This document shows, piece by piece, positions 1,783 through 40,057 of a DNA stretch of 64,000 nucleotides (the stretch's first letter is position 1; each line of letters opens with the position of its first letter). The DNA lies in contig JAJRZQ010000037.1 of assembly GCA_024275165.1 (NCBI GenBank), forward strand, positions 140,961-204,960. Direction: 5' to 3'. The DNA is from a bacterium. Lineage in GTDB: Bacteria; SAR324; XYD2-FULL-50-16. Made by a program: the position numbers and the translations under genes. A model generated the notes under the pieces. It was not told where the DNA came from and did not search any database. It saw only the letters and a program-made list of their open reading frames with translations.

Positions 1783-1788
1783 GTTTTT

Positions 1789-9556: not shown

Positions 9557-10652
9557 ATGGCCTCTGTCTCGGCTGACAAACTTGGCTTATCGACAACCAA
9601 AAAGGTATGGATGTTTTTCCAGCGCACTCTTAAAGAGCTTCTCGTACTCCTCGCCAAGTTCGTGGTCGCTCTTGGTTTGTTATTTTACCTCTACCAAAAC
9701 GACAGCATCCACTTTGAACAATTGCTGGTTTTGCAAGATCAACCGCTTCAATTGGCCTTGATGCTCGGAGCTTTTTTGTTGTTGCTTTTTGCCCTTGCTG
9801 GGGGGCCGTCTTTGGATGATCTTAAAGATCGCCGGGTTTCAGATCTCATTCTTCAGCGCCCTTAGGCTGACCTGGATCGGGATGTTTTTTAGTTTGGCGC
9901 TGCCGGGCGCCGTTTCAGGCGACCTGTATAAAGGCTATTATCTAGTCAAGGAGCAGGAAAATAAATCACTCAAAAAACCGGTGCTCACCCTTTTGGCAGA
10001 CCGAATCATTGGACTTTTCAGCCTCATTTTGAGTTCGTTTATTGGCATTTTTTTAAATATGGATTTAATTTTAGAACAAACCTTGATGCATTTTCTGGCA
10101 GGGAGCATCATTTTAGTTTTTTTTTCAGGAGTGATTTTATGGGGCGGAACGATCTTCCTAGGGGGGAAAGCGGCAGAATTAATCTTTAAGGTTCTCTTTT
10201 TTCTGCCAAAATCAAAAAGCTTTCACCAGCTCTTGCAGATCACCGAAGTTTTTAAAAAACATCGTTTAACATGGTTGGGGATGGTCTTATTGTCCATGGC
10301 TTCACATTTGGTTATGATTTTTATTTTTTTACAAATCATTCATTTATTGCAGATGCAAGCAGTGGATTGGTCTTTGCTCTTGTTAATCATCCCCCTCGGT
10401 ATGATTACCACAGCCATACCCATCGCCCCAGCTGGAATTGGGATCGGTCATATTGCGTTTGAAAACCTTTTCATGCTGACTCAGGGGATCAAAGGCGGCG
10501 CGGATTTATTTAACCTGTATGTCGCAACCCAGATTTTATTTTCTTTACTGGGAATGATTCCTCTTTTTTGGGTTAGAAAAAATAATTTTCCAACAGGCCT
10601 CCCCTATAGAAAATTTAAAATCAGCTTCTTTTTTTTTAACAAATTACGATGA
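9557..10652 (+). pseudogene. Lysylphosphatidylglycerol synthase-TM / AglD-like flippase-type membrane protein, frameshifted
   Basis: The coding sequence begins with an ATG at 9557 and changes frame at a run of six G (9800-9805). Reading through with one G fewer joins FALAG to GRLWMILKIAGF and gives a protein of about 364 residues. After the shift the protein carries LPGAVSGDLYKGYYLV and IPIAPAGIGIGHIAFENLF, the two conserved motifs of the UPF0104 / LPG_synthase_TM family. The homolog at 39078-40055 in this window is intact and guides the reconstruction. Proteins of this family often sit beside DPM1-like synthases and have been proposed to move polyprenyl-phosphate sugars. The stop overlaps the next gene as ATGA. 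A sequencing error at the G tract is possible. Confidence 0.8.
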
Positions 10653-13072
10653 AATTAAAAATTCAATTATCAATCTCCTCGCTTCTAATTTTGACAACCC
10701 TCTTGTTTTCAAAGGAGATTGATAATGCATATTATTTAGTCGCTGCCGATGCAATCCGCCGGGGGCTCATCCCCTACCATGACTTTTTTCAATTTCAATA
10801 CCCCCCTGGCGCAGTTTACCTTTACGCGGCGATTTTGGATCTCTTAAAAAACCTGTTACTGCAACGCCTGCTCTTTGCGGGGATAATATTACTGGCATCC
10901 TGGCTCCTCATCAAGTTTTTGATTAAACGCCTATCTCTAGAAATCACGCCGATTTATGCCTTTGCCGTTACCGCCTTGTTTCTTGCGGTTTCCCCCAATA
11001 GCTTGCGTAGTTACCTGCTTGTTGAATCCAAAGGTTTTTTTAATGTTCTCTCCTTTATGATTTTGACGATTTTGTTGCCGCTAGACATAAAAAAACGAGA
11101 ATTTGATAAAGTCTTATCGAGTTGGGTGATTGGGGCGGCTATTGTTTTTATCGGCCAAAAGCTTTTAAATGGCCCCATTCTTCTCTGTTTTCTTGGGTTT
11201 ATCGGGGTTTATCAATATTTCAACAAACAAACCCTGGGCATCAAATATTGGCTTTACCTCTTCGGTAGTTTCTCGCTGATTTCGGCCCTCGCGCTCATTT
11301 TACTTTTAGACCAAGCGGTTTATTTTCAAGCTTATCAATCCCTTTTGTTAGTCTATGGCAATGCGGAACAATTTAGCCTGGAAAAGTTTAACAGCATCCT
11401 TTTTTTTAGTTTTTTGAACTATTTTTTCCCCCTCTTGTTGCTCCCCTTTGTAGCAAAGCGACCTATATTTCAGCAACACCAGCATTTAATTCTACAAGCG
11501 AGTAGTTTTGTTGTCGGCTATTGTTTTGTTTATAATGTGGCCCCTAAAAAGACCTTCCTTCTATATTCTCAGGCCCCGCTGTTAGCGGTTTATGTTTTCT
11601 TAGGCTTAATGCTAGCCGATGGGATGCGGCCTCACATCGGTAAAAGCTATTGGTTAACCATCGCTGCCCCTGCCCTGGCTGTTTTTACTCTACATAACCT
11701 GTATAATGACTGGCGAATTCCAGAAGCCTTGGCACATAGCCACAGCCTGGAAGAATACCACAATATTGCGCAGGCCGAGCCCATCAAGGGAGTAAACTTA
11801 CCTCCGGCAGAGGCCCCGAAGGATTGGGCCCTGCATGATGAAGGCTCCTGGCTGCAAGGCTTTGCTGAGCTTTCCAAAGGCGGATTGTATGAATACCTAG
11901 GGATGCAAGCACTCGCTGATTATATCGCGGAACACAAGTCCCAGCTCAACCCAGATGGAGACAAGAAATACCGCTATTTATACTATGCCCTGCCAATCCT
12001 CATGGCTGGGGAACAACCGGCTTTGGAAAACATCTCCGGCCATGTCTTTTTGTTGCATAAACCCGACCCAACCTACGCTGAAGAGCTGCAAAAAAATCAG
12101 GTCATGACCTTAGATCGCTTTTCCAGTTATTTGAAGGACGATGAGTCCGCTGGCTGGATTTTATCCCATGAAGACATCGATTCTCTTTTTACTTTAAGAA
12201 AGACCGATTTTCCCTGTCTAGAAATTCAGCCTCTCTTTGTTCATCCGCCCTTTGGCTTGTACCGTTTAATCAACAAGGAACAGCGCTTCGAACAAAAACC
12301 CTTCGCTAACTTGATTTCTCAGCTCAATCAGGAAACGAGCATTGACGAGGTCATCATCCCTCAAGAACTCAAGATGAAACTTTGCGATTTAAAAGACCTT
12401 AAAAAACCTTATAAAATCAGAAGAATTTCCGATATCCAGAGATGTTTACCCCAGCAGCTCAAATCCCCTAAGGCTCATGTCGCCCTCCTACTACCCACAA
12501 AGGGCATCGACTCACCCCCCTTTCAAGCAGAAGCGGTAAGTCAGATAAAACTCAAAATCAATTCGGCCAATTTATTATCTACCTCTGCTCTCGGGGCTAC
12601 TCCAGGGGTAGAGAAACACTTACAATCGATAGAGACCTACTTGGTCAATGGTGCCACCTCTTGCATTCCAGAGGGCTTTTTACCCTTGGAAGATTTTAAA
12701 TTCAGCCAGGCCTATTATGTCTCTAGAGAGGGTGAGGTTGAAATGCCCTCCAACGGGGAGATTACTTCCCCCCTCTATTATCTTAAGCCTGGCAAGTATC
12801 AATTTCAATTTAACGCAAGAGGGGTCACCGCCGAGGGAACCGGTACGGCAATCATCCTGCAGATCATCGATTTGAGTACGGCAAAACAGGCCTATGGAAA
12901 TCAATTTTATTTTTCCGAAAAAACGCAAACCATTACCTCGGAGTTAGATGTAGAAGCGGCAGGCAACTATGTCTTTCGCTTTTCCTTTGTTAATGATGCC
13001 ATCATTGAAGGGCAGGATCGCAACGCTTTCATCCAGAATGTTTCCTTAATGCCCTTAAACCAAACCGAGTAA
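10649..13072 (+). CDS. Large GT-C-like membrane glycosyltransferase with novel C-terminal extension (paralog A)
   Basis: This is an 807-residue protein. The first 350 residues form about 10 membrane segments and include an acidic loop (EIDNAYYLVAADAIRRG) and HDFFQFQYPPGAVYLYA, typical of ArnT/PMT-like (GT39/GT83) enzymes that use polyprenyl-phosphate sugars. After a soluble region comes a C-terminal extension of about 240 residues in two parts. Part one carries DEVIIPQEL and RCLPQQ (about residues 567-602). Part two is a predicted beta-rich domain with STAKQAYG and GQDRNAFI (about 690-800). The same extension recurs in the proteins at 13434, 15895 and 27410. It starts with an ATGA overlap with the flippase-like gene, so it belongs to that operon. 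The substrate is unknown. Confidence 0.78.
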   Translation: MKLKIQLSISSLLILTTLLFSKEIDNAYYLVAADAIRRGLIPYHDFFQFQYPPGAVYLYAAILDLLKNLLLQRLLFAGIILLASWLLIKFLIKRLSLEITPIYAFAVTALFLAVSPNSLRSYLLVESKGFFNVLSFMILTILLPLDIKKREFDKVLSSWVIGAAIVFIGQKLLNGPILLCFLGFIGVYQYFNKQTLGIKYWLYLFGSFSLISALALILLLDQAVYFQAYQSLLLVYGNAEQFSLEKFNSILFFSFLNYFFPLLLLPFVAKRPIFQQHQHLILQASSFVVGYCFVYNVAPKKTFLLYSQAPLLAVYVFLGLMLADGMRPHIGKSYWLTIAAPALAVFTLHNLYNDWRIPEALAHSHSLEEYHNIAQAEPIKGVNLPPAEAPKDWALHDEGSWLQGFAELSKGGLYEYLGMQALADYIAEHKSQLNPDGDKKYRYLYYALPILMAGEQPALENISGHVFLLHKPDPTYAEELQKNQVMTLDRFSSYLKDDESAGWILSHEDIDSLFTLRKTDFPCLEIQPLFVHPPFGLYRLINKEQRFEQKPFANLISQLNQETSIDEVIIPQELKMKLCDLKDLKKPYKIRRISDIQRCLPQQLKSPKAHVALLLPTKGIDSPPFQAEAVSQIKLKINSANLLSTSALGATPGVEKHLQSIETYLVNGATSCIPEGFLPLEDFKFSQAYYVSREGEVEMPSNGEITSPLYYLKPGKYQFQFNARGVTAEGTGTAIILQIIDLSTAKQAYGNQFYFSEKTQTITSELDVEAAGNYVFRFSFVNDAIIEGQDRNAFIQNVSLMPLNQTE

Positions 13073-13433
13073 AATCTACGCCCTGCCATGCGCTAAGAGA
13101 ATGGTGAAGAGATAACGAGGCAAGGTTCGAGGCAAGCCATTCATGTTGGCCACTGAGGTCACCGTAGAATCCAAAATGCTGGGTTTTGGACTCGATTTAA
13201 TTAAGGTGATCTGGTACATCTTGCCTACCATAACACTTAAAGCTTGGCATTGCTCAAAGTAGTCCGGTTGGGCCTTCCCCTGCCCAAGGTTCGCGAGATG
13301 ACAAAAGACCAAGATCTTTGATTTATTTTTTATAAAATCCAAAAACCCCTGCGCCCTACTGTGCAAATATGAGAGCCATCGCCTTCAGAGCCGACTTGAT
13401 TAAACAATCGCACCTCATTTAAGAAGTTGAACC
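13073..13433. other. Intergenic region without a recognised gene
   Basis: About 360 bases lie between two co-oriented membrane-protein genes. A 96-codon open frame on the minus strand (13076-13366) has no recognisable family and no clear ribosome site, so I treat it as chance. No terminator-like hairpin with a T tract or repeat stood out. Confidence 0.4.
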
Positions 13434-15803
13434 TTGCCAAACAACAATCGCTCTAAGCCTTGGATGATCTCTATTCTAGCAATGGAGATGCTAGGCAGCT
13501 TTATTTTAAGTCTCTTATTTTCAAAATACTTCTACGACCCCCTTCATTGGGGGTTAATGATGAGCAACGCCATTGATTTAATCGGCGGTAAGTTGCCTTA
13601 TAAAGAAATCTTTATTCAATATGGAATTTTAACAACCCTGTTGCAGGGCTTAGGGCTGATCCTCTTCGGCAAAAAAGTCTATGTCATTGGTATGGTGACG
13701 GCTCTATTTTTTGGTTTTTCTTTACTCCTGCTCTATAAAATTTGGTCTCATTTCCTACCTTTTTGGCTGTCGCTCATTTTAGTGGTGATTTTTTGGGCAC
13801 TCAGCCCATATATCCGCTATCCCTGGTCAAACTATTTCTCCACCCTTTTTCTTTTCATCGCCATTTGGCTGCAGATTCAATTTTTTTATCGGCCTGCCTC
13901 AAGAAAAAGAAATCAAGGTTTATTCTTTTTGGGTTTTTTTTACGCCTTGGCCATATTAGCTAGAGAAACGGTCATCGTTATCGTTGTCCCCTATTGGCTG
14001 ATTTTTATCCTTGCCGACGCTCTCGCGGCAAGAAACAAACAGACCTCTTTTAATATTTCTAGCTATGCTAAGATCAGCCTTGGCTTCCTTGTCCCCTTGA
14101 TTCCCTTTGGTATTTATCTAATTTCGCAAGGCATCGTTTCAAATTGGTATTTGCACAGTTTACCGATTTGGGGGGGGTATGTGGAGACACACATCCAAAA
14201 TGTTGGAGTCCTTGGAAAAATAATACAAATTTTTTCTTTTAGTACCACCAACCCGAATCACACCTGGAACCCTTGGATAAGCTTTCTTTTAAGCCCCTTA
14301 CTTTATCTCAATATCGCACTCCTAATTTATATTGCTTACCAAGTTTTTTTTAAGCGGCAAAGTTTTTCCAAACATGCTCCTGCCTTTATTTGCGCGCTTC
14401 ATGCGCTGCTCGGTGTTAGCGCTATTCTCCATTACCAAGACCCCTTTCGGGTGCAATTAAGCAACCTGATTGGCTTAGCGGGTATTTTTTACTTAGGCCA
14501 AGAATTTTTAAAAACCCGGCCTGCATGGCTACAAAACTCGATCCGCTTTATCCTTGTTAGTGGCCTCCTGATCACTGTATACGGGCCATTTGTCGAGAAT
14601 ATGCAACTGCTAGTTCATCGCTTAAAGGCTGAAACCATCAACCCGGTCACGGTTCACCCTTTTTTAACGGAGCAGAAATTTGACCAAAGCACCATTACCC
14701 GTTATGAGGAGCTAAAAGTTCTCTTCAATAAGGCAATGCGGTTCTCTCGTTGCGACATTTTATATTTAGAAAACCAGACGCAAGATGTCTTTCTCAACTT
14801 TATAACGCCTCTACAAATTGCCCACCATGCCTCTTCCTTTGATCACAACACCGAGATTCTCAATAGAATCGTAGACCCGGCGAACTCTGAAAAAGTCAAA
14901 CAGCTTGAGAAAAACGGGAACCTCGTAATCTACCAATATACGAATGCCCAAATCCCAAAAAATTATTTTATTTATGATATTTATCAAGATGCTCGGGTAT
15001 TGCTTCCGAATATATGTTTCGGTTCGCATTCAAAACCAGACATCTATAGCAATCTAATCCAACGATTAAACCAAATCAATGGCCTGCAAAAGGTAATATT
15101 TTCTTATGAATTAGGGCTTATAGAACAAGATTTAACCCCATTGAAAATACCCTTTGAAGAGAAGCCCATGCACGAGATCGCCCAATGTTTCACTGCCTTT
15201 CCAGGCACAATCGAACAAGCGAGGGTCGTCTCCGTCCTTCCCGTTAAGCTCAACACAATCAATGCGGTCTATTCACCGGAACTCTCAAAGCGCATTGGAG
15301 AAGTTAAAGAGGATAAAGCCCATCAGATTGACCGGATCGCCGCCAAACCTGATACTGGATTAGGGTTTGATCTGCTGATTTTACCAGTACCCAAAGCGAC
15401 TTCCTGCCGCCATGAAGGGATTTTTCCCCCCTCGAAATTAACCCTCACTGTTCCTTACGATGATCATTTCGGAGAAATCAGAATGGTCTCCAACGGAAGC
15501 ATCAGCCTACCGCTCTATCAGTTATTAAAAGGCAAATATACTTTTCGTTTTAAAGGCAGGGGCACTCCGGCAGGAGGAATCAAGGCGAAAATCCAAGTCA
15601 ATATTATCCATATTAATACGGCTAAGCAGATTTATGGTAGTGAAATTGACCTTGATGAGGGAGCCCAGACCTTTCCAATTGACTTTGAAATCGACAAAAA
15701 CGGAGTTTACCAGATTCGCATCACCTACTTAAACGATGCGATCATTGATGGGCAAGATCGAAACGCTTTTATTAAGGATCTTTCCTTAAAATCACTGCCA
15801 TAA
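13434..15803 (+). CDS. Large GT-C-like membrane glycosyltransferase with novel C-terminal extension (paralog B)
   Basis: This 789-residue protein starts at a TTG (13434) with AAGAAG eight bases upstream. About 10-11 membrane segments fill residues 10-400. The first large loop reads YDPLHWGLMMSNAIDLIGG and then KEIFIQYGIL, the layout of GT-C enzymes. The soluble C-terminus repeats the two-part extension of paralog A. Part one has KVIFSYELGL and a conserved Cys in QCFTAF. A second conserved Cys lies in TSCRHEG. The beta-rich part ends with NTAKQIYG and GQDRNAFI. Sequence outside the extension is quite different from paralog A, so the enzymes may transfer different sugars while sharing a docking or recognition module. 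Confidence 0.75.
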   Translation: MPNNNRSKPWMISILAMEMLGSFILSLLFSKYFYDPLHWGLMMSNAIDLIGGKLPYKEIFIQYGILTTLLQGLGLILFGKKVYVIGMVTALFFGFSLLLLYKIWSHFLPFWLSLILVVIFWALSPYIRYPWSNYFSTLFLFIAIWLQIQFFYRPASRKRNQGLFFLGFFYALAILARETVIVIVVPYWLIFILADALAARNKQTSFNISSYAKISLGFLVPLIPFGIYLISQGIVSNWYLHSLPIWGGYVETHIQNVGVLGKIIQIFSFSTTNPNHTWNPWISFLLSPLLYLNIALLIYIAYQVFFKRQSFSKHAPAFICALHALLGVSAILHYQDPFRVQLSNLIGLAGIFYLGQEFLKTRPAWLQNSIRFILVSGLLITVYGPFVENMQLLVHRLKAETINPVTVHPFLTEQKFDQSTITRYEELKVLFNKAMRFSRCDILYLENQTQDVFLNFITPLQIAHHASSFDHNTEILNRIVDPANSEKVKQLEKNGNLVIYQYTNAQIPKNYFIYDIYQDARVLLPNICFGSHSKPDIYSNLIQRLNQINGLQKVIFSYELGLIEQDLTPLKIPFEEKPMHEIAQCFTAFPGTIEQARVVSVLPVKLNTINAVYSPELSKRIGEVKEDKAHQIDRIAAKPDTGLGFDLLILPVPKATSCRHEGIFPPSKLTLTVPYDDHFGEIRMVSNGSISLPLYQLLKGKYTFRFKGRGTPAGGIKAKIQVNIIHINTAKQIYGSEIDLDEGAQTFPIDFEIDKNGVYQIRITYLNDAIIDGQDRNAFIKDLSLKSLP

Positions 15804-15894
15804 GCTCGACGGATTTTTTTTGGTAAGTAAATCGATTCATTCATCAAGCTCGATTTTATAACCGAGTTTATTGAATACTTGAAGGAGAATAGAC

Positions 15895-18288
15895 ATGACT
15901 GCCAGTTTAAATCGACCTGGGAAAGGGCTAGAAATAAAATTCGGGCTCAATTACAAGCTGCTTCTGGCAATCTATTTGTTGGCTCACCTTCCCCATTTAG
16001 CCTTTATGAACGCTCGATTTTGGGATGGTTGGAGCATCTATAAAGCCAGCCCCGAACTCTTAAGAGAGATCAATCTACAGGTGGGGCTTCCTTTGGCTGG
16101 AGAACTACATGTACTCATCAGCCAAATCGGTTGGTGGATATATCCCTTCTTGATTCTTCTTGCGATGCTCGCGGTCGTCCTTTGCACCTACAATGTGGCA
16201 AGCAAGCATACCTCTTCGACCTCTGCCTTTTGGGTTGCCGCATTTTCAGCGGTCCTACCGATGAATTTTGCTAGGATTTCTTCTGCTACTCTAACCTATT
16301 CATTCTGTTTTGCTTTTTTTATGTTTGCTTGGTGGCTACTGCTGCTGTCACTCGAAAAAAGAAAAATACTCAATCGAGCCATAGCGATAGTGGGGTTCTT
16401 GTTGTCCTTTCAAACCGGTTCTTTGCTGGTTTTCTATGCGATGCCATTCCTTTCATATGGGTATTTGGCCGCAAAACAAAACCGGAATTTTACTTTAAGA
16501 AACCACGCCCGAACCGTAACCTTTTCCCTGGATCTGATTGCCGCTCCGGTTGCTTTTTGGATGTTTAAAATCGCCTTCTTTCAGCCCTACGGGATGTTTG
16601 AAAACTATAACACCTTAAATATCCGCCTTTCAACCTTTCTTGATTCCTGGCCCCCTATTTTTTCTTTTTTTGCTGGTACTGGTGTGGGCATTGGGATGGG
16701 GGGCATCTTTGTCATTTTATGCCTATTCATTTTCATCCCCAATAGCTGGCTTCGCGCCTTCCCAGAGCTTGAAAATAGAGGGGTGAAGCAGGCCATTGGC
16801 TTGATTCTCATTGGCTTGATTGCTTGTTATGTGGCCGTTTTCCCTTACGCTGCCGTGGATCGCTGGCCTTCTTATAACACCTGGACATCCACCAGGCATC
16901 AGCTTGCCATGCCCATAGGAATGTCCATCATCTTGTATGGGATTATCGAAATCTTTACCTTTAGGATCAAAGCATTTGCTTCTACCTTGGGTAGCATGAT
17001 CCCCTTACTAGTTTGTTCCATCGGCATCGCGAGCTGGTGGAATGTCTATGCTGAAATGTATGTGGATCATTTAAGACAGAAAGCGTTAATTTATGAGTTT
17101 GGAAAAAACGATACTTTTGCAAAGGGTAATTTTGTTTTTCTTGATGCGACGGGAACCTTGGCGTTTAACACCCCAACCGGGGTTTCAGAATATGCCGCAT
17201 TGCGTAGTGAGGCCGGCCATCCTCATAATTCGCTGATCGTACCTTACGACCACTTGATGCAATATCCCAGTTTTGGGGCCTTTACTAAAGCGACAAAAAA
17301 ATATCTCGGACCCTGGTCTAAGGTTGAGGGGATTGACCCTAGGATCAGACCCCTTTATTTTAACCTTCGCCTTAAAACACCGATCGAAAATAAAATGCGC
17401 TACGCTTTTAATATGTATCTTTTGCATTTATTTTCCCCCGCCTTAGAAGAACGAAATTTACGAAATTTGCTTTATCTAGACGGCCCCTTTTTACCCTACT
17501 CCTCCTCAAACCTTTTTGAAGTCTTAAACGAGGAGGAGGCAATCGAGTTTTTAATCCTCCCCCAGGAATTAGGGCTTAAAAATATGGAGTTGCAACTTCT
17601 CCGTAAGCCCTTTGTAATTAAGCCCATCGCAGAAATTGAAAAATGCTTTCCAGCGCAAACTGAAACCCCACCTAATGGCGGAAACACGCTTGTTTTGCCC
17701 GTTTTTCCTACTGGCGCGCAAAGTTTGAGTGATCCATGGACCGAGCGTCTTTTATCTAAAGTAAATCCCTCCAATGAACTGGCGACCATCGAAAACCGCT
17801 TTCCTAGGTCGGGTAACGGCAAAGCCATTGCACCCCAGAGCTTTCAAATTTTCCGAATTGCCGGAACCTCAAACTGTATCCCCAACGGGCAGGTTCCCAT
17901 GACTGATATCTTTAGAAACCCTCCCTATGGTCATGATTCATCAGAAATTCGCATGATTTCAAATGGAGATGTGACCCTGCCCTTCTATTATTTTACCCCA
18001 GGGAAATATCGTTTTGAGTTTGAATACAAAGGCAGCCCCGCAGATCATACCAATGCAAAACTCCTCACCCAGATTGTGCAAATGAATACGGCAAGGCAAA
18101 TCTACGGCAAGGAGGTTTACGCCACAGAAAAGGAACAACTTGAAGTCACCTTGTTCGAGATTGAAACGGCTGGATACTACCGCTTACGAGTTTCCTTTGT
18201 CAATGACGCAATGATTGATGGTGAAGACCGTAACGCCTTTATCAAACGAGTTTCTCTCTATCAGGTTAAAAATGCATCGGTGCCCTAA
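15895..18288 (+). CDS. Large membrane protein with novel C-terminal extension, probable glycosyltransferase (paralog C)
   Basis: This 797-residue protein starts at the ATG at 15895, preceded by a strong AAGGAG ribosome site at spacing 8. About 10 membrane segments are followed by a soluble region of roughly 380 residues. The N-terminal part (FWDGWSIYKASPELLREI) differs from the standard GT39 loop, so the GT-C assignment is weaker than for paralogs A and B. The C-terminal extension is complete: FLILPQELGL, LRKPFVIKPIAEIEKCFPAQ, then SNCIPNG and the beta-rich part with NTARQIYG and GEDRNAFI. A TATAAC hexamer at 15857-15862 may be a -10 element, without a convincing -35. Confidence 0.72.
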   Translation: MTASLNRPGKGLEIKFGLNYKLLLAIYLLAHLPHLAFMNARFWDGWSIYKASPELLREINLQVGLPLAGELHVLISQIGWWIYPFLILLAMLAVVLCTYNVASKHTSSTSAFWVAAFSAVLPMNFARISSATLTYSFCFAFFMFAWWLLLLSLEKRKILNRAIAIVGFLLSFQTGSLLVFYAMPFLSYGYLAAKQNRNFTLRNHARTVTFSLDLIAAPVAFWMFKIAFFQPYGMFENYNTLNIRLSTFLDSWPPIFSFFAGTGVGIGMGGIFVILCLFIFIPNSWLRAFPELENRGVKQAIGLILIGLIACYVAVFPYAAVDRWPSYNTWTSTRHQLAMPIGMSIILYGIIEIFTFRIKAFASTLGSMIPLLVCSIGIASWWNVYAEMYVDHLRQKALIYEFGKNDTFAKGNFVFLDATGTLAFNTPTGVSEYAALRSEAGHPHNSLIVPYDHLMQYPSFGAFTKATKKYLGPWSKVEGIDPRIRPLYFNLRLKTPIENKMRYAFNMYLLHLFSPALEERNLRNLLYLDGPFLPYSSSNLFEVLNEEEAIEFLILPQELGLKNMELQLLRKPFVIKPIAEIEKCFPAQTETPPNGGNTLVLPVFPTGAQSLSDPWTERLLSKVNPSNELATIENRFPRSGNGKAIAPQSFQIFRIAGTSNCIPNGQVPMTDIFRNPPYGHDSSEIRMISNGDVTLPFYYFTPGKYRFEFEYKGSPADHTNAKLLTQIVQMNTARQIYGKEVYATEKEQLEVTLFEIETAGYYRLRVSFVNDAMIDGEDRNAFIKRVSLYQVKNASVP

Positions 18289-18304
18289 GGTTACATTTCA
18301 TCGA

Positions 18305-18389: not shown

Positions 18390-18473
18390 ACCCTTTACAA
18401 AACCGCCGTAGCTTGCGAACCTGTCATCTAATTAAACTAAATTTTTGACTCTTTTGCATCCTTTGAATATTTC

Positions 18474-19562
18474 GTGAAAAAAACAGCGCTCATTACCGGT
18501 ATCACAGGTCAGGACGGGGCCTATCTAGCCGAATTCCTGCTCAAAAAAGGCTATGAGGTTCACGGTCTAAAGCGCCGTTCCTCTTTATTTAATACGGATC
18601 GGATTGATCACCTTTACCAGGATCCCCACGAGAAAAAACGAAAATTTTTTCTCCACCATGGCGATTTAACGGACTCAACGAATCTGATTAGAATCATTCA
18701 AACGGTTCAACCCACCGAAATCTATAATCTCGCGGCGCAAAGCCATGTTGCCGTCTCCTTTGAAACCCCAGAATATACCGCCAATGCGGATGGAATTGGC
18801 ACCCTCAGGGTACTCGAAGCGATCCGCATTCTAGGGCTCGAAAAAAAGGTGCGTTTTTACCAGGCTTCCACCTCTGAACTCTATGGGCAGGTAGTGGAGA
18901 CTCCCCAAACAGAAACAACTCCTTTTTATCCCCGTAGTCCCTACGCCGTAGCTAAACTTTACGCCTACTGGATTACCGTAAACTATCGCGAAGCTTATGG
19001 CATTTATGGTTGTAATGGCATCCTGTTCAATCATGAGTCACCAATCCGAGGCGAAACCTTCGTAACCCGCAAAATCACCCGTGCCATGGCCCGCATTAAA
19101 CTCGGGCTACAAAGTTGCCTCTTTTTAGGAAACATGGACGCATTAAGAGACTGGGGCCACGCCCGCGATTATGTCGAAGTCATGTGGCTCATGCTGCAAC
19201 AAAAAGAACCGGAGGACTTTGTCATAGCAACGGGCGAGCAGCACTCGGTACGCGAATTCGTGACCCTTGCCGCCAAAGAATTGGGGATGGAGATTAACTG
19301 GCAGGGCAAAGGTATTGAGGAAAAAGGGTATCTCCCTGGACAAAGTGAGCCCATCATCGCTGTAGACCCTCGCTACTTTCGTCCCACTGAGGTCGAAACC
19401 CTGTTAGGTGACCCGACCAAAGCGAAAAGCAAATTAGGGTGGAACCCTCGCATCACCTTCCAAGAATTAGTAAAAGAAATGGTGATCAGTGATTTGCAAG
19501 ACGCAGAGCGAGATACCTTGATCCGCAAGGAAGGATATAAAAGCTTCGACTATCATGAATAA
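18474..19562 (+). CDS. gmd: GDP-mannose 4,6-dehydratase
   Basis: This 362-residue SDR enzyme converts GDP-mannose to GDP-4-keto-6-deoxymannose in the cytoplasm. It starts at a GTG (18474). Diagnostic segments are [27 protein letters not shown], the STSELYG motif and the catalytic YAVAK, then [19 protein letters not shown], which is highly specific for Gmd. The length matches the family. The stop overlaps the start of fcl by eight bases. Its substrate GDP-mannose can come from the ManC-type enzyme at 32667-34076. Confidence 0.96.
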
Positions 19563-20502
19563 AAATGCCAAAATTTATGTAGCTGGCCACCTCGGTCTAG
19601 TCGGTTCAGCGATTATAAGAAAACTTCAACAAGAAGGGTTCCACAATCTCTTGACCCGCACCCGGCAGGAGTTAGACCTAATACGCCAAGAAGCGGTTGA
19701 GCAGTTTTTTGCCCAAGAAAAACCGGAATATGTTATTCTTGCCGCTGCTAAGGTCGGTGGAATTCAAGCTAATGATTTCTATCGCGCCGATTTCATCTAC
19801 GAAAACCTGCAAATTCAAAATAATATCATTTACAACGCCTATAAGCAGGGCGTGGCTAAACTTCTCTTTTTAGGCAGTAGCTGCATCTACCCCAAACTAG
19901 CACCCCAACCCTTGAAAGAAGAATACCTTTTGACCGGCCTACTCGAACCAACCAATGAGGCCTATGCGGTAGCCAAGATTGCGGGCATTATCATGTGCCA
20001 AAGCTACAACCGACAATATGGAACTCAGTTTTTATCGATCATGCCGACCAACCTTTATGGCCCCTTCGACAACTTCGATCTGAATAATTCCCATGTACTG
20101 CCGGCCATGATCCGCAAATTTCATGAGGCAAAGGTCAGCAACAACGCTGCCGTCACCCTTTGGGGAAGCGGAAAACCCATGCGAGAGTTTCTCTATTCAG
20201 AAGACATGGCGGACGCTTCTCTGTTTGCCTTGCAGCAGATCCAGGTTGGCGACACTCCCAGTGATCTATATAATATTGGCTCTGGAAAGGATATCCCCAT
20301 CAAAGAGTTGGCCCTCCTCATTCAAAAAATTGTGGGTCATCAAGGAGACATCCACTGGGATTCAAGCAAGCCCGATGGAACCCCGAGAAAACTCATGGAT
20401 GTACAAAAAATGACCGACTTGGGCTGGAAAGCCAAAACAAGTTTACCAGAGGGAATAGAAAAAACCTATCAATGGTTTTTGGCTAATCTCCCTAAAAGCT
20501 AA
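19555..20502 (+). CDS. fcl: GDP-L-fucose synthase (GDP-4-keto-6-deoxymannose 3,5-epimerase-4-reductase)
   Basis: This 315-residue SDR enzyme finishes GDP-L-fucose synthesis from the Gmd product. It shows [11 protein letters not shown] at the N-terminus, [19 protein letters not shown] and the catalytic YAVAKIAGI, all characteristic of Fcl/WcaG. It is translationally coupled to gmd. Together the pair indicates fucose, or a related 6-deoxyhexose, in the surface glycan. Confidence 0.95.
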
Positions 20503-20631
20503 CCGCCTTCGCTTTAATTTCATTGGATTCACCCCTTTTTACCCCGACTGAAACCGGGATTTAAAGGCAAACCCCAAGGCCAAGCTTAAGAATCCTATTC
20601 ACAGCCTTCCCACTATTTCGCTTCCAAGCTT

Positions 20632-21393
20632 GTGAAAGTCAGTATCATCACCGTCTGTTACAACTCCATCCAAACGCTAAGGCAAACCATAGAATCGGTA
20701 CTGTCGCAAAACTATCCTGACATTGAGTACATCATAATCGATGGGGATTCAACCGATGGCACCGTAGAGCTGATTCAAAATTATGGTAAACGCATAGCCC
20801 AATTTGTCAGCGAAAAGGATCAGGGGATTTATGACGCTTTGAATAAGGGGATTTCAAGAGCAACCGGAGAAGTGGTGGGCATTCTACATGCCGATGACTT
20901 TTATGAGCATCGTGAGGTCATTACCCAAGTGGCCCAAGCGTTAAGCAATCAGCCCTCCGATAGTCTTTACGGCGACTTAGTGTATGTGAATGCCAAAAAC
21001 CCAGACCAGGTAATCCGTTTTTGGCGTTCTGGAGAGTATCGGCAAGGGGTGTTTCGCTGGGGTTGGATGCCGCCGCACCCAACCTTTTTTGTTAAAAAAT
21101 CCGTATATGATCGCTATGGAGCTTTCAACCTGAGACTGAAAAGCGCGGCGGATTATGAATTAATGCTACGATTACTCCATTGCAAACAGATCAGTACACA
21201 ATATTTACCTCAAGTCCTCGTGCGCATGCGTGTTGGAGGTATGAGCAATCGAAGCTTGAAAAATCGCCTCCACAGCAACCGCGAAGATCAATTAGCGTGG
21301 AAGTACAACAACCTGAAAGCACCCTTATTCCTGCGTTGGCTTAAACCTTTCAGAAAATTATCACAGTACCTTCTTCGTCCCTCAGACGACTAA
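20632..21393 (+). CDS. Family 2 glycosyltransferase (WcaE-like)
   Basis: This 253-residue GT-A enzyme starts at a GTG (20632). It has VSIITVCYNSIQTLRQTIESV, the IIDGDSTDGT nucleotide motif, the metal-binding HADD (ILHADDFYEH) and a helper segment MPPHPTFFVKKSVYDRYG that is common in WcaE-type and related GT2 enzymes. The tail is basic and may touch the membrane. Next to gmd and fcl it is a candidate fucosyltransferase, but the sugar specificity is only inferred from position. Confidence 0.83.
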   Translation: MKVSIITVCYNSIQTLRQTIESVLSQNYPDIEYIIIDGDSTDGTVELIQNYGKRIAQFVSEKDQGIYDALNKGISRATGEVVGILHADDFYEHREVITQVAQALSNQPSDSLYGDLVYVNAKNPDQVIRFWRSGEYRQGVFRWGWMPPHPTFFVKKSVYDRYGAFNLRLKSAADYELMLRLLHCKQISTQYLPQVLVRMRVGGMSNRSLKNRLHSNREDQLAWKYNNLKAPLFLRWLKPFRKLSQYLLRPSDD

Positions 21394-21464
21394 GCTTGTT
21401 CATTTTCCTGGCAACCGCTATACTTGCTCAAACTAAAGTTTGACCTCCTCAACTCTCAGCCAAC

Positions 21465-22904
21465 ATGTATTCTAATACTTCGCTATTTACCGCTGCTCTT
21501 GTCTCATTTGCGCTATCCGCTTCTCTGTGTCCGATCGCCATATACTTGTTTCGGAGTCATTTTTTGCAGCGATCGGTATTAAGCAAGTATCGACAAATCC
21601 ATAATGACCCCATTCCTCGAATCGGAGGGGTGGCGATATTTTTAGGTTTTTGGTTCACCATCGCTCTGCTGATCGTTCTCAACACAGGGCTTGTCGTAAC
21701 CTATATTCACCAGTCCTTGCGAACCCAGATGCTTTTGCTTCTGGCCTTGTTGAGTACTGCCGTGTTTTTATTGGGACTAATTGATGATTTTGTGGTAATC
21801 CGAGCGCGTTATAAACTCTTGATTCAGGTGCTGATTGCCTTTGTTACCTCCATCACGATTTTACCCCCTCCCGTGGTACTACTCCCTTTTTTTGGTATGA
21901 TTGATTTTGGCATGGCTGGTTTTGCCCTTTATACTCTTTGGATTGTGGGGGCGATGAACGCGATGAACCTGATTGATGGATTAGATGGACTCGCAAGCGG
22001 AATCAGCGCCATTGCCTTGGTCGGCTTAGGGGTGACCGCATGGATGACGCAAGATCTAACTTCATTGCTGCTCGAAGTCACCTTGATAGCCTCCATCTTC
22101 GGTTTTTTGCTCTTTAACTGGCACCCGGCAAAACTCTTCATGGGTGATTCAGGAAGCTTATTTTTAGGCTATATGCTTGGAGTCATCCCCCTTTTTCAAG
22201 TCTACAATCAACACAATTACTTAGGCATTTCACCCATCATTTTATTGGGAGTACCCATTGTAGATACCATTTTTTCCATTTTGCGCAGGTACTTAAGAGG
22301 TATCCCCGCTTTTTCAGCAGACCGCAATCACATCCACCACAAGTTATTGAGAAAAGGGCTCAGTCATGTGCAGACTGTATTATTTCTCTACTTGACCTCT
22401 CTGGCGTTTTTAGGCGTCTTTGTTTTGGAAAATCAACATTGGGTTGACCAGCGGCTCGCGCTCTTAGCTTTTCTTGTCCTCGCTTTATTGCTGGTATTGA
22501 TCGCCGGTTATGAAGAAATGACTCAACCATTTGAGGTCTACCGCAACCGAAAAAGCTTACGAAAAGATCGAACCTTTTTGCAAAGTCTTTCGGAAAATCT
22601 AGAATATTTTTACTATCGCTGCGAGAGCGTTGATGAGCTATTTTTTATTTTAGCAATTTGGGCTGAGATCAACCCAGCTATAGAGGTAACTCTGAGCTTT
22701 CCAGGGGGCAGTAGACACAAAAATTTTGCCCCCCCCGAACAGAAGCAGCGCATCATCGAATTTCAAGAAAATGAAATGACCTTAAAGCTAATTTTTAGTG
22801 AGGATTTTTTTGAAATGGACTCGGATGTAAAACACGAAAACATCCATCATATTATCAGTCAAACTTTTTCCACCCTGGAAAGAATTCTCCAAAAAGAAAC
22901 TTAA
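21465..22904 (+). CDS. Undecaprenyl-phosphate sugar-1-phosphate transferase, WecA/MraY family, with C-terminal extension
   Basis: This 479-residue integral membrane enzyme would start glycan assembly by moving a sugar-1-phosphate to undecaprenyl phosphate. The family motifs are present in order: LGLIDDFVVIRARYK (Asp-Asp), NAMNLIDGLDGLASG, FMGDSGSLFLGY and the catalytic loop ADRNHIHHKLL. About 10 membrane segments occupy residues 1-345. A soluble tail of about 125 residues follows, which ordinary WecA lacks; I do not recognise it. The gene ends right against a degenerate IS end (22903-22922), so the last codons abut the decayed zone. Confidence 0.88.
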   Translation: MYSNTSLFTAALVSFALSASLCPIAIYLFRSHFLQRSVLSKYRQIHNDPIPRIGGVAIFLGFWFTIALLIVLNTGLVVTYIHQSLRTQMLLLLALLSTAVFLLGLIDDFVVIRARYKLLIQVLIAFVTSITILPPPVVLLPFFGMIDFGMAGFALYTLWIVGAMNAMNLIDGLDGLASGISAIALVGLGVTAWMTQDLTSLLLEVTLIASIFGFLLFNWHPAKLFMGDSGSLFLGYMLGVIPLFQVYNQHNYLGISPIILLGVPIVDTIFSILRRYLRGIPAFSADRNHIHHKLLRKGLSHVQTVLFLYLTSLAFLGVFVLENQHWVDQRLALLAFLVLALLLVLIAGYEEMTQPFEVYRNRKSLRKDRTFLQSLSENLEYFYYRCESVDELFFILAIWAEINPAIEVTLSFPGGSRHKNFAPPEQKQRIIEFQENEMTLKLIFSEDFFEMDSDVKHENIHHIISQTFSTLERILQKET

Positions 22905-22922
22905 GGAGCCTCTGAAAAACTC
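22903..22922 (+). repeat. Degenerate IS left-end inverted repeat
   Basis: The 20 bases match the IS end at 26021-26040 at 17 of 20 positions, in the same orientation. The following bases (CAGGGATGG) are nearly the same as those after the partial end at 27281 (CAGGGAGGG). No transposase adjoins this copy. Confidence 0.55.
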
Positions 22923-23052
22923 CAGGGATGGCGTTTTACGGTAATGATCCCATACAAAAAGGCAACCTAACCAGATCGATAGAGTACGCCCCTGACAAAC
23001 TCAGAATCTGCGTCAAACCACCTAGGGACTGAGGATTAATTGGCCTGTCAGG

Positions 23053-25321
23053 CTACAGATTATCACAATTTGCTTTATACCAAGTCCCTATTCGACCGAT
23101 CTTTTTCCCATGATAATGTTGGGTCAATTGTTTGAGAAGGGAAGGATGATTCTTCCATACCATGGGCCATCGATCAACCACTACAATGTTTTTAACTTTA
23201 CATTCAGCAAACATTTGCTCCTGAATCGCGATCTGGTTCAGGAACAGGGTTTCACTACTAGAGGGGAAATCCCACACACTCGGAATAGGGATTCCCTGAG
23301 AAAAATAAAAGACTCCGCTATGCCGAGAAAGGACTAAGACATCTTCTTTTCCACTTTCAAGATATTCCTTTTGTAATTGGGTAAAATATTGGCTGATTTC
23401 TATATCCGAGATCGTCTTTTCGCCATTGAAATATTTATAGGCCAAACGAATAATTAGAGTATGGTCCGATCAAAGTTTAGAGTAGGATAATACGCCAAAA
23501 GCAACGACCAGCAGAAGAAGTGCCTTTTGCCCGTAGGTTGGTAGTGGGTTCACCCTGCAAAGAAGATCACTGATCAATAAAAGGGCAAGTAAAATTGCGG
23601 GATACCAGGGACTAATTAAGACCATATCATGACTTCTTCCGACATAATAAGAAAAAAGCCCTGAACCTAAAATAGCAATATAAAAAATAATATGAGTTTT
23701 TTCGGTCGCTCGCTGCTGAATCAAACGCAAACTAACCAAAGCAAAAGTGAGTAAATAGATGAAAACGACGAGTACCCAACTGCCGACTAAGGGTGCCGGT
23801 AACATATAAAAACCGGATAGGGCAAAAACTCGTTGAAACTCCATGGTTAAGGCAAGGTCTGGTGCTTGCCCATAGAACCAAAAATAAGATGCCACCAACA
23901 ATAAGGCACAGACTAGGGCCGTCCCCAAAGTTCCAGCCCACGCCCTAGCTAATCCAATCCAATTGAATCGGCCAATGATCAGGTACTGGTAAGCCAGAAA
24001 TATAAGCCACGAGGCAAAGCAAACCAAGCCGGTATCAAAATTCCAAAAAATGCTCACCGAAGAAATCACACCAAGGGCATAAAACCGCCATGGGCTAGGG
24101 GCAGATATATATTTCCACACCATATAAATCATCAAGGCTGCAAATACAGTCCGAATCGGCATATATTGATAATATGGATCAAAATTTGAATCGGTGAAAA
24201 CCCGAGCAAATATCTTTCCGATAAGGCTTAAATAGATCCCTGAAATCACAAGGCTAATTTTGTTGTTTTTTATATAGTCGTGTAAAAACAACACAATAAA
24301 ACCTATACTTGCCGCCGTCAGAGCCGTCATTACGGCCATATATCCCTTAACGCTCTGAATCAATGAGGAAAAAAACAGCCAAATCAGATAATTATACCCT
24401 CCGTACTGAGACACTAAATTCCCCATGAACAACCCTTTATGATTGGCAAGTTGCACATAGCTAAAGAAAACCGGATCGAAATGGTAAACAGAAGGGAGGT
24501 AGTTAATCGTAAAATAATCCCCAAGAGATAAAAGCAGCACCGAAACGATCACCAAGCTTTGGCAAGGCTATTGAAAATTCTCTTTGACTCTTCATTAAGT
24601 AGGTAAAAAAAGCCGCGATCGCAACGATGTCGGCCAAATTCAGCCTCATTAAAAACAATTCAAAATGAGAGAACTTGGGAAACTCGATAAAATAGGCCGC
24701 AAAAAGGACTAAGCCCAATGAAGCGGTAAGCGACCTTTGCAAGGATATTTTAGACCAAATCTTTAACCTTTGATTCAAAACATAAACCGCGATCAACGAA
24801 ACAAAGGGTAAAAAAGCCAACCCGAGCAGGTAAACATAACGATCAACTCGATCATCATAAACAAGAGTAAAAGCAATGAGCTTTTTCACCTGCTCTTGCA
24901 TTTCTAGCCTTGCGGGTAGGGGGAAGACCCCATAGATCAAGGCAAACAAGACCAGCAGGGAAAAACCTGCCGAGTAAAAAACCGTCAAGCGGTTGCTAAG
25001 CGCCGCGGACGAAAGTAAGGGGTTTTGGCGAGCAAGGCGTGGGATGAAATTAGGTGCCAGCAGAGCTAAAAACAGACCCGATAGAATCAACATGTAAATG
25101 ACTTTGGGCTGCAAAAGCCAGATCAGCATCATGCTGACTTCGTTAAATTTATACATCAAAGCATAGCCAACCGTCATCAAGAGGCCTAAAAGAAACATCA
25201 AGTTTCTAGTTTGGCGGTTCGCAGCCACCTCGCCCCATTTATCTGCAAGCTGCTGAATTAAATTTTGAATCTCTGCTTTTAACATTGAAGTTTTTTTAAG
25301 ATGAAGATCAATCACAGGCAA
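23053..25321 (-). pseudogene. Broken large membrane protein gene, GT-C-like glycosyltransferase remnant
   Basis: Three open frames on the minus strand read as one gene of about 750 codons, the size of its intact neighbours. The 5' part (25321-24503) has about six membrane segments. A one-base shift in the region 24540-24560 moves the frame, after which SLGDYFTINYLPSVYHFDP and NLVSQYGGYNYLIW continue a GT-C-like protein with more membrane segments. An in-frame TGA (23470-23472) then interrupts it. The same frame goes on with SDHTLIIRLAYKYFNG and a soluble tail ending at 23053. Two independent lesions, the opposite orientation to its surroundings and the flanking IS ends all argue for a decayed gene. 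Confidence 0.75.
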
Positions 25322-26020
25322 TTTGGCTAGATCTCCAAAATATCCCCGTGATAAAAAATCAAAAACCGGGCCTAGACATCATCGCTTCGAGACGATTTTT
25401 GCTCAGAACCCTTAATCATACAGAGGCTCCTATACGAGGTACGACGCCTGGCAAGGTTGTCTAACCAAATCAATCGCAAAGCGCATTGCTTTGGTTCAGA
25501 ATGGGGCACGCACTGGCCCTACAATAGGATTAACTCGATGGTTGTCTAGGCACTCACCTGCCGCATTAAAAAACAGCAGGAATGGAACTTTTCAGCGACT
25601 CCCCAATGCTAACACCTTAAAGCTTTTAAAAAAACAGAACCTATAAAAATTGCTTCTTCCCTTCATTGAAGCTTCAAATTCTGCTAGGGACCGAGCACCT
25701 CAGGGTTTTCAAAACAATTCGAAGATAAGCTAATCCCTCTTAAAAGGCAACGCTACTATCTCGCTCGGCAGCCCCCTTTGCTTCAAAATCCTGTTTATGG
25801 TGTCGCTCTACAATTGTTGCGTCCCTGTTACTCTGAAATTAAGTTCCCCAGATCGGGCTGCAAGAAGCCTATTTTTTTGCAAGCCTTTCTGGCAGGTTAT
25901 GGCAATTGGCTTGGTACCAAACCCCAGGGCTATGGAGGCGTTTCATCTTATCGCTCAAAGAATGAATACATTTCCCCTTGTAACTAGGTTTGATTTATTT
26001 TAAGCTAGGTGAGGTTCCTA
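25322..26020. other. Decayed intergenic zone between IS ends
   Basis: This stretch of about 700 bases has no intact gene. It contains a partial IS end (25421-25430, the inverse of GGAGCCTCTG), a right-hand IS end at 25584-25603, and a 417-base segment up to the next left end at 26021. Two overlapping short open frames at about 25780-26003 are not recognisable and may be remnants. Confidence 0.45.
25584..25603 (-). repeat. Degenerate IS right-end inverted repeat
   Basis: The reverse complement of this 20-base sequence matches the left end at 26021-26040 at 17 of 20 positions. It points leftwards, so it should close an element lying at lower coordinates. The nearest left-end-like sequence on that side is 22903-22922. 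Confidence 0.5.
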
Positions 26021-26107
26021 AGGAGGCTCTGAAAAGTTCCCCAACTATCTAGAATCTACAGGTTAAATAATAAGCTGAGTCCAACTTAACCCTAGGTGAG
26101 GAATGCC

Positions 26108-26559
26108 ATGAGTCAGCTCAGTTTCATTTCCCTTGCCCACGCAAAAAAAGAACTTAAACCAGAGAAGTTTCTCAAACAAATGGATCAAGTCGTTCCCTGG
26201 CAAAGGCTATGCGAGCTGATTTATCCCTTTTATTCAGAAAAGAAGCGGGGCCCTAAGAAGGTGCCTTTGGAGAGAAGGATACGGATTCTTTGTTTACAGC
26301 AGTGGTATGGGTTTTCCGATCCAGCCATGGAAGAAAAGATATATGATCGCATGACCTTTCAAACCTTTCTAGGTTTGGATTTACTAAAAGATTCGGTTCC
26401 CGACGAAACAACGATTCTCAACTTTCGCCATTTCCTTGACGCTGCCCGCGCGGGGCAATTAAACGAACCGCAGGCTCACAGAATCAAGAGTTATGAAGTC
26501 GCTATCTGAGTTCAACAAGAGCCAGGGTTGAGCATCCCTTTCAGGTGTTAAAGCGCCAA
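26108..26559 (+). pseudogene. IS5-family transposase, internally deleted
   Basis: The start is the ATG at 26108 with GAGGA upstream. Residues MSQLSFISLAHAKKEL, then RIRILCLQQWYGFSDPAMEE and VPDETTILNFRHFLD, are the N-terminal DUF772-type domain of IS5-group transposases. After NFRHFLD the catalytic core is missing and the frame ends at 26509. In another frame, 26509-26559 encodes SSTRARVEHPFQVLKRQ, the characteristic C-terminal segment of the same family. About 150 residues with most of the DDE catalytic region have been deleted, so the protein is not functional. Confidence 0.82.
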
Positions 26560-26679
26560 GGGGATATCGAAAGCTAAGATATCGAGGGTTATTAACTCAG
26601 CGTGTCTATAAGTTCCTGATTTTAAAAACCACTGGGGTCTGGGGCTTTTCAGCCCCAGCCTGCGGAGCATATATAAATA

Positions 26680-26723
26680 GCGGGGCGCTTACGCCCAGCG
26701 AGCGCTCGCGCGAGCCGCCCCGC
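26680..26723. repeat. GC-rich hairpin with internal palindrome
   Basis: The arms GCGGGGCG (26680-26687) and CGCCCCGC (26716-26723) are perfectly complementary, and the loop contains a 12-base perfect palindrome (26698-26709). The base composition is strikingly richer in G and C than the surrounding decayed zone. It resembles a REP-type or mobile-element hairpin, but only one copy was noticed in this window. Confidence 0.5.
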
Positions 26724-27280
26724 CGGCTTTGGGCAGAGCGTCATCAAGGCGATCCGCCTTCAAGCGAACTCCGCGAAAGCAAAGGAAGCAGTCTGTAGGC
26801 TGAGCCTAGGTCGGTCCAGTTCTCGGAAGAACAATATAGGCGCCGGATTAATAGAAAAGAATTTAGAGAGCTATATCTGCTCTTTAGCCTCCATAACCTT
26901 TTCAAGGTAAGGAAAACGCCCAGAAAAAGGGCTAGAATGGGGTGCAAATTCCTTGCGGAAAAGGTGAATTTCTGCGAGAATTTGCCAATTTTATCATATT
27001 CAAATAGAAATCAGTCTATTTGAGGTATTTTTCAGACCTTCCTTGAGCTCTCCATCAAACTGAAGTAACCTCAATACAAAGTGAAGGCTGAAAAATGGAG
27101 GCGAAAGAGGGAAAGCTAGGCAAAAAGACATGTACCCGCAATATTGTATTAAATTTTGAGTACTTGAGGAACCCTGAAAAATGAAAAGGTTTCAGGCAAG
27201 GCATGAATGCCTTGACAAATAAAAATGTGTACCATGTTGGTTTTGCGTTGAATTTTAGGATTCTATTCCCAGCGGGCAAG

Positions 27281-27317
27281 ACTGAAAAACTCCAGGGAGG
27301 GAGTTTTTCCGAGGTTC
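27281..27317. repeat. Abutting IS ends forming a hairpin
   Basis: A partial left end (ACTGAAAAACTCC, 27281-27293) is followed after a few bases by a right end (GGAGTTTTTCCGAGGTTCC). Together they make a perfect 10-base inverted repeat, GAAAAACTCC/GGAGTTTTTC. This is what remains when two copies of one element type end next to each other, or when an element collapses to its ends. Confidence 0.5.
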
Positions 27318-27409
27318 CTTGATGGGACTGATTCCATCTGGGCGATTTTTCAAAACAATCGGCACCGATGAAATAAAACGAAGTTTTTAAGATCCACCGA
27401 AACCTTTGC

Positions 27410-28552
27410 ATGAACAAAACTAAGTTTGGAGAGAATAAAAAATATCTGCTATTTTTTTCAATTTTCCTACTTCTTCTTGCCTTGGTCATTTATCGAATCT
27501 CTGCAATTCATGAGGCGATACAAAATGGGCAGGGTCTTGCCCCCAACCTGGGAAATTGCAATCGAACTCTGCAACCCCATGAACTGCATTCTAAGACCTA
27601 CCCCTTCACCGCTTTATTAGAGCAAATCAATCCAGCTGAACAAATTAAAGAGGTAATTTTTCCCCGCGAAATGATGCTCCATGCCTGCGACTTACAGGCT
27701 TTACATAAACCCTTTTCTATCCGCCCTATTAGCGAGCTAGCAGGATGTTTGCCCGACCAGAGAGGAGCCCTCACAGGGCCTGTAGGCCTTGTTTTACCAA
27801 GAGATCCATATCTTTTTCCCTTTGGAAATCCCAAGCGCATCGCCCATTTCGCTGAAAGTCATGCATCCAAGACCAACCCAAAGTTTCATCTTCCTCCTAT
27901 TCAAAGCGACATTAGCGATAAATGGGGGCTGGACAAAGGGTTGCAAACATTTGTGGTCGCCGGTGTATCGGGGGCTCCCTCATGTTTTCAAGAGGGTGTG
28001 GTGTCCTTTTCTGATTATCAACTCAGTAAAAGCTTCCAGCGCGGTGAAGATGGGGTTCTTAGAATGAATTCCAATGGGGAAGTTGCCTTGTCCTATCATT
28101 TCAAACAAGGGCGGTATCGCTTGGAAATTGAAAGTTTCGGCACTATTGCAGAGAACGAATACGCCAAATTTGCAGTCCACATTGTCAACTCCAATACAGC
28201 AAGGCAAATTTACGGGAATGTGTTTATTTCACCCAAAGTCTTTGGCGTGGATAGCTTGCATTTTGACGCCTCAACCGAAGGGGATTACCGGATAACCGTC
28301 TCATTTATCAATGACCTCACAAGTAACGGGCAGGATCGAAATTTCAAGCTTAAAAAGATTTCGTTATTTTCCCTCTCGAACCCGCGCCAAGATCCTAACC
28401 TATTCGTTGATTGGTTGGAGCAAATTCCACAATATAAATGGGATGCTTTGCTGATCTTTGCTTTTTTAGTTGTTCAAGATCTTTTGCTTTCTCCCTTTAT
28501 TCAATTCATGTTCGAAAAAAAATCCTTTCAAAGATTGAAGGATTTCTCTTAA
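27410..28552 (+). CDS. Membrane-anchored protein made of the shared C-terminal module (paralog D, stand-alone form)
   Basis: This 380-residue protein has one N-terminal membrane segment (about residues 11-30), a soluble middle and a hydrophobic C-terminal segment (about 346-366). It lacks the GT-C core. The middle matches the C-terminal extension of the proteins at 10649, 13434 and 15895: EVIFPREMML, LHKPFSIRPISELAGCLPDQ, a second Cys in PSCFQEG, then the beta-rich part with NTARQIYG and GQDRNF. The soluble part is presumably periplasmic. Its function is unknown; it may be an accessory subunit for the GT87-like protein 45 bases downstream, giving in two proteins what paralogs A-C hold in one. 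Confidence 0.75.
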   Translation: MNKTKFGENKKYLLFFSIFLLLLALVIYRISAIHEAIQNGQGLAPNLGNCNRTLQPHELHSKTYPFTALLEQINPAEQIKEVIFPREMMLHACDLQALHKPFSIRPISELAGCLPDQRGALTGPVGLVLPRDPYLFPFGNPKRIAHFAESHASKTNPKFHLPPIQSDISDKWGLDKGLQTFVVAGVSGAPSCFQEGVVSFSDYQLSKSFQRGEDGVLRMNSNGEVALSYHFKQGRYRLEIESFGTIAENEYAKFAVHIVNSNTARQIYGNVFISPKVFGVDSLHFDASTEGDYRITVSFINDLTSNGQDRNFKLKKISLFSLSNPRQDPNLFVDWLEQIPQYKWDALLIFAFLVVQDLLLSPFIQFMFEKKSFQRLKDFS

Positions 28553-39024: not shown

Positions 39025-39077
39025 GGATTTTGAGATTATTTCTTTGTAAATTATGCAGATGACCTCGTTCCGTCAAG

Positions 39078-40055: not shown

Positions 40056-40057
40056 GG

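Follow-up and report, generated by a model that had tools for sequence, protein, structure and literature searches.

A two-part C-terminal module with a predicted CBM36/CBM60-type domain, shared by unrelated polytopic membrane proteins of a polysaccharide locus

Four membrane proteins encoded in the window (the whole 64,000-nucleotide stretch of DNA analysed here), at 10649 (F1), 13434 (F2), 15895 (F3) and 27410 (S1), share a two-part tail that aligns pairwise over ~255–265 residues (Table 1). The tails are homologous and the three polytopic cores are unrelated: tail pairs scored 43–168 SD above shuffled sequence, whereas the cores of F1, F2 and F3 scored 0.6–1.4 SD against each other, i.e. 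no detectable similarity. We consider it likely, with a probability of roughly two in three, that the tail is an extracytoplasmic acceptor-binding unit of GT-C glycosyltransferases that, in the periplasm, add sugars to a surface polysaccharide. An earlier note on this DNA had described a C-terminal module common to the four proteins, with cores differing more than tails; the module, its extent and its motifs were borne out, and the statement on the cores proved an understatement in view of the shuffling scores. Its picture of four different membrane proteins with their own cores applies to F1–F3 but not to S1, in which the module is flanked by transmembrane helices and no polytopic core is present.

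Table 1. Features of the locus and copies of the module (window positions unless another locus is named)
Feature	Position	Strand	Description	Module	Cys codons	ND..DRN	Basis
Wzt (with Wzt_C) and Wzm	490..2697	-	ABC-transporter polysaccharide pathway				Pfam
GT2 enzyme	8684..9436	+	candidate lipid-linked donor synthase				Pfam; solved relatives
LPG_synthase_TM protein	9789..10652	+	candidate donor transporter; overlaps F1 by 4 bases				Pfam
F1	10649..13072	+	polytopic, putative GT-C-like core, module C-terminal	about 12299-13063	12443-12445, 12662-12664	12992-13024	ORF, tail alignment
F2	13434..15803	+	polytopic, subthreshold PMT_2	about 15054-15800	15186-15188, 15405-15407	15732-15764	
F3	15895..18288	+	polytopic	about 17506-18261	17644-17646, 17875-17877 (sole two outside membrane segments)	18202-18234	
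GDP-mannose 4,6-dehydratase and epimerase-family gene (GDP-fucose-synthase-like)	18474..20502	+	directly after F3				Pfam
S1	27410..28552	+	TM-module-TM, 380 aa	about 27599-28381	27746-27748, 27983-27985	28310-28342	
GTp1	28597..29907	+	436-aa polytopic, directly 3' of S1, without soluble C-terminal domain				
Second set: GT2, LPG_synthase_TM and 790-aa polytopic protein	38317..42430	-	without module				
Second Wzm and Wzt (with Wzt_C)	50182..52427	+					Pfam
S2	L007:5509-6672		module copy outside window, same contig				
S3	L008:4035-5189		module copy outside window, same contig				

The module comprises about 260 residues in two parts and is probably extracytoplasmic. Part one carries a V(I/L)xPxE motif, a KPF/KPY segment and the first Cys (RCLPQQ, QCFTAF, KCFPAQ and GCLPDQ); part two carries the second Cys (TSCIPEG, TSCRHEG, SNCIPNG and PSCFQEG), a TA(K/R)Q(I/A)YG motif and ND..G(Q/E)DRN, with minor variants in F1 (QAYG) and S1 (GQDRNFKL). 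Searching all six reading frames of the genome brought to light two further copies beyond the window, on the contig to which it belongs (G000:C29:103520-104644:- and 122031-123146:-; see also S2 and S3 in Table 1), bringing the family to six members. F1, F2 and F3 are polytopic proteins that end in the module; S1, S2 and S3 are proteins of 380–387 aa with one hydrophobic helix on each side of the module, an ectodomain arrangement.

A single contig contains all six copies in a stretch of about 66 kb, and two of the copies have an 87.6 % repeat nearby, as might be expected if the shared tails were a product of recent gene conversion or of an insertion-sequence effect, without function. However, the copies are mostly 30–52 % identical and yet keep the Cys pair and the putative calcium loop described below, which argues for long selection; we regard this explanation as very improbable, and rejected recent gene conversion in particular on account of the divergence among the copies.

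Both cysteines, which the earlier note had found in all four tails, are in fact invariant in 6/6 members. Outside the hydrophobic segments, F3 has two cysteines and every other member four, always an even number; the invariant pair and the even counts make a disulfide between the two plausible.

Part two, modelled from an alignment of the six sequences only (pLDDT mostly 80–88), is predicted to be a β-sandwich jelly roll of the CBM36/CBM60 type. The model superposes on CBM36 entries with an rmsd of 2.5–2.7 Å over 113–117 residues (VIA: 1UX7, Z 12.4; 1W0N, Z 12.5; 7AY3, Z 13.1); a match of the β-rich part to a CBM fold was what the earlier note had proposed to check. The other best solved matches included CBM6, CBM4, CBM16 and CBM61; meprin and Cry-protein domains, which have the same general fold, rank equal to the CBMs, so the fold alone is no proof of sugar binding.

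Profile comparisons point in the same direction. Each of the six modules alone matches Pfam CBM60 (PF16841) weakly (best E value 0.0015, best scores about 17–23 bits), in every case below the curated cut-off of 28.2 bits; we therefore describe the module as CBM60-related and do not assign it to CBM60. Full-length F1 returned no CBM60 match in Pfam, and CBM60 matches across the whole genome were confined to the module proteins. A profile–profile comparison of these modules alone with CBM60-type domains of other lineages, most of which exceed the CBM60 cut-off themselves, gave a probability of 97.9 and an E value of 3e-13. With a profile of the CBM half, domains were found in ten other genomes, and several of these or their relatives (L012, L043, L045, L046, L047, L064 and L067) pass the CBM60 cut-off. 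Common ancestry of part two with CBM60 domains is thus well supported at the sequence level. Searched against PDB sequences, the module profile reached a best E value of 0.16, and NCBIfam returned no module match over any cut-off. The module had initially been considered not to belong to a described family, with carbohydrate recognition as a possible role. Given the fold, the calcium-type motif, the weak CBM60 matches in 6/6 modules and the profile–profile match, part two no longer fits the first description, and carbohydrate recognition is well supported as its predicted role; part one, an α/β domain with no confident match, still fits the first.

In one CBM36 domain, loop aspartates D367 and D372 bind the ligand-side Ca2+, whose ligand contact they support, and Gln267, Glu269 and Asp376 bind a second calcium (PMC9165906). 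The motif ND..GxDRN, invariant in 6/6 modules and with its N, D, D, R and N kept in eleven sequences from several lineages, was matched to D367/D372 of CBM36-1 by position and motif, with a spacing of 7 residues vs 5. CBM60-type relatives such as L045 also carry EAE early in the domain and an Asp after DRNxxI; the modules described here have no EAE and carry Lys (five members) or Gln (F1) after DRNxxI, from which we infer that, of the two calcium ions, they retain the ligand-binding one and have lost the other. The absence of these structural-calcium residues would also suit a module that has lost sugar binding and become a structural or docking domain, joining GT-C enzymes to one another or to further envelope proteins, with the cysteines providing rigidity. 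The same fold makes protein contacts in meprin, and the anchored copies S1–S3 resemble partner subunits. A purely structural role would not, however, need a ligand-calcium loop that is invariant in six members and kept in distant relatives, and we consider docking unlikely.

Part one, when folded alone, is predicted to be a small α/β domain (pLDDT 78, pTM 0.75) that had no match below E 0.025 in PDB and BFVD (Foldseek). The top two rows of its VIA list were both GT-C enzymes, namely ALG12 (101 residues, rmsd 3.8, Z 4.6) and AftD (125 residues, rmsd 5.0, Z 4.5); these scores lie below the level that the tool treats as meaningful and give a hint only. Its invariant residues are the Glu of V(I/L)xPxE, the Pro of KPF, the Cys and an LP pair. 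A relationship between part one and the CBM half was considered, and profile comparison revealed none. Part one was not seen outside this genome when sets of 240 and 384 genomes, which overlap in part, were searched by profile: all outside matches start at profile position 181 or later, in the CBM half. No close relatives of the whole module were found in scans of genome-contig, viral-contig, plasmid and phage collections, and a single-sequence search found none in 57 other genomes, nine from the same family among them.

The membrane cores of F1–F3 and GTp1 have 7–9 strong hydropathy peaks and, by eye, Asp-bearing first loops, which may correspond to the 7–13 transmembrane helices and acidic first outer loop expected of GT-C enzymes. 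Pfam contained no GT-C family match for the F1, F3 and GTp1 cores; that of F2 matched PMT_2 at 20.9 bits, below the cut-off of 26.1, and had two marginal relatives among 116 genomes. The topology, the loop motifs and this one subthreshold match suggest that the cores are of GT-C type. As the sole core family match is of the protein mannosyltransferase type, the target might not be a polysaccharide at all, but for example secreted proteins or lipid A, with the module binding that substrate. PMT_2, however, takes in many GT-C enzymes with non-protein substrates, and polysaccharide genes, including two Wzm/Wzt pairs, dominate the locus; we rate such a target as a rather remote prospect.

The free-standing copies have neighbours of their own. 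GTp1 and GTp2 (directly 3′ of S2) are polytopic proteins of 436–439 aa, 52 % identical and the sole two copies in the genome; GTp1 had no relatives in 191 other genomes. The S–GTp gene pair thus occurs twice (S1 with GTp1, S2 with GTp2), and S3 is without a GTp neighbour. Because neither GTp protein has a soluble C-terminal domain, an S protein and its GTp neighbour together resemble a split version of an F protein. Transposase-like fragments occur near the free-standing module genes (window 26020-26509; L007:6754-6946; L008:2839-3303), and the repeat mentioned above, of 193 bases, lies upstream of both S1 and S2.

The genes around F1–F3 are arranged in the order GT2, LPG_synthase_TM, F1–F3, GDP-mannose dehydratase, epimerase-family gene, GT2 and glycosyltransferase-4 (WecA/MraY-type). 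The closest solved relatives of the GT2 at 8684 are DPM synthase (5MLZ), GtrB (5EKE) and ArnC, so that it fits the polyprenyl-phosphate-sugar-synthase slot of a three-component system. The LPG_synthase_TM protein adjoins polytopic (GT-C-like) genes twice in the window, and its position suggests a lipid-linked donor transporter or flippase. In the first of these loci (window 9430-10652), the gene aligns with its profile only from position 50 onward, and a matching hydrophobic N-terminal part sits just upstream in another frame; the gene thus appears to be frameshifted near 9785, whether in reality or by assembly error. An ORF of 1260 aa (window 46514-50296), with methyltransferase and GT2-type sequence by eye, adjoins the second Wzm/Wzt pair, and elsewhere in the genome (L010:3627-8390) lies a 1587-aa TPR-rich protein whose C-terminal part resembles a CHAT-type protease by eye.

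In the acceptor-binding model, the GT2 at 8684 would charge polyprenyl phosphate with a sugar, and the membrane protein at 9789 may carry the lipid-linked sugar across the membrane. Part one probably packs against the GT-C core and part two probably binds the acceptor glycan via Ca2+ in the ND..GxDRN loop, whereupon the core of F1, F2 or F3 would transfer the sugar to the module-held glycan. In S1 with GTp1 and S2 with GTp2, the module would be anchored on its own and serve a bare GT-C enzyme as a separate subunit. Periplasmic location, the GT-C identity of the cores, the disulfide, an S–GTp complex and the binding of sugar and Ca2+ are all predictions of this model. It draws on the CBM36-like fold, the CBM60 matches, the invariant loop, the donor-synthase-like GT2, LPG_synthase_TM, Wzm/Wzt and the doubled S–GTp pair, as well as on an independent PMT_2 protein with a CBM60 tail in another phylum and the analogues GT136 ORF12 and EmbC (see below). 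The sub-cut-off CBM60 scores, the sharing of the fold with meprin and Cry domains, the dispensability, as tested, of the GT136 CBM and a GT-C assignment of the cores that relies on topology, loop motifs and one subthreshold PMT_2 match count against it. A more tentative proposal, to which we give well below even odds, is that one genome has joined a portable acceptor-binding unit to three unrelated GT-C cores and also provides it in trans, as a subunit anchored in the membrane, to bare GT-C enzymes; if true, an exchangeable partner would determine the acceptor specificity of a split GT-C glycosyltransferase.

CBM60-type tails on membrane proteins of polysaccharide loci were also found in other lineages. 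In another phylum (G148), a PMT_2 protein (E 5e-13) has a terminal CBM60 domain (E 7e-10), both over the cut-off; about 3 kb onward, a TM-TPR protein with a CBM60-type domain directly precedes an 11-TM protein, followed by Wzm/Wzt. The same TPR-protein and 11-TM pair occurs in G383 (L043 and L063; Wzm/Wzt loci). All three genomes examined of one phylum (G199, G337 and G385; L045, L046 and L064) encode a polytopic TPR protein of 944–960 aa that ends in CBM60 (E 1e-12 to 3e-15), next to an O-antigen-ligase-family gene in G199 and G337, and in G211 and G350 (L067 and L068) single-helix TM-TPR-CBM60-type proteins lie on both sides of a weakly Wzz-like protein. The tails of L043, L045, L046 and L064 resemble our module in that a polysaccharide locus encodes a polytopic protein ending in a CBM60-type domain; however, they have TPR repeats or another linker where the module has part one, and their cores are unlike those described here. 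CBM60-type modules had been known from xylanases; their presence in several lineages on membrane proteins of glycan assembly invites a wider search for acceptor-recognition domains.

Among known domains, CBM60/CBM36 (PF16841; 1UX7, 7AY3) shares the predicted β-sandwich and two-aspartate calcium loop, and the module differs in its sub-cut-off score, the missing EAE, the Lys/Gln after DRNxxI and its presence on membrane proteins instead of hydrolases. Wzt_C, of which there are two in the window, is likewise a glycan-recognising β domain in the same type of locus, but is cytoplasmic, belongs to the exporter ATPase and forms a separate Pfam family.

Mycobacterial EmbC/EmbB and AftD are also GT-C enzymes with an extracytoplasmic C-terminal region. 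In EmbC, this region falls into two subdomains; the second, which is needed for acceptor binding, is a β-sandwich close to CBM6/CBM36 whose Ca2+ site matches (PMC3044687; PMC7341804 for EmbC/EmbB). Unlike the proteins described here, Emb and AftD are 15-helix enzymes without separate module subunits, and the Emb Pfam families (GT53) gave no match to our proteins up to E 10.

The GT136 enzyme ORF12 of Citrobacter youngae is a GT-C protein of an ABC-transporter locus. Its C-terminal CBM was shown to bind O antigen that is still unmodified, and the enzyme did not need this CBM for activity in the conditions tested (PMC11127046). The ORF12 system (O1/O2) is similar in the C-terminal CBM on a GT-C protein, the ABC-transporter O-antigen locus, the polyprenyl-phosphate-sugar synthase and a candidate flippase, but has one fused GT-C, a MATE flippase, a phosphoribose-based donor enzyme and no anchored free-standing module. 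By description, the system reported here is set apart from ORF12 by one two-part module on three unrelated cores and by LPG_synthase_TM as the candidate transporter. Few systems are known in which a GT-C enzyme carries a CBM tail, and the evidence on its role is divided, the tail being important in EmbC and dispensable in GT136 as tested; since one genome here has fused and apparently split forms on unrelated cores, that role becomes directly testable. Holding a growing polysaccharide by a CBM, the most likely role here, is a known principle; its arrangement in this genome is new and unusually portable.
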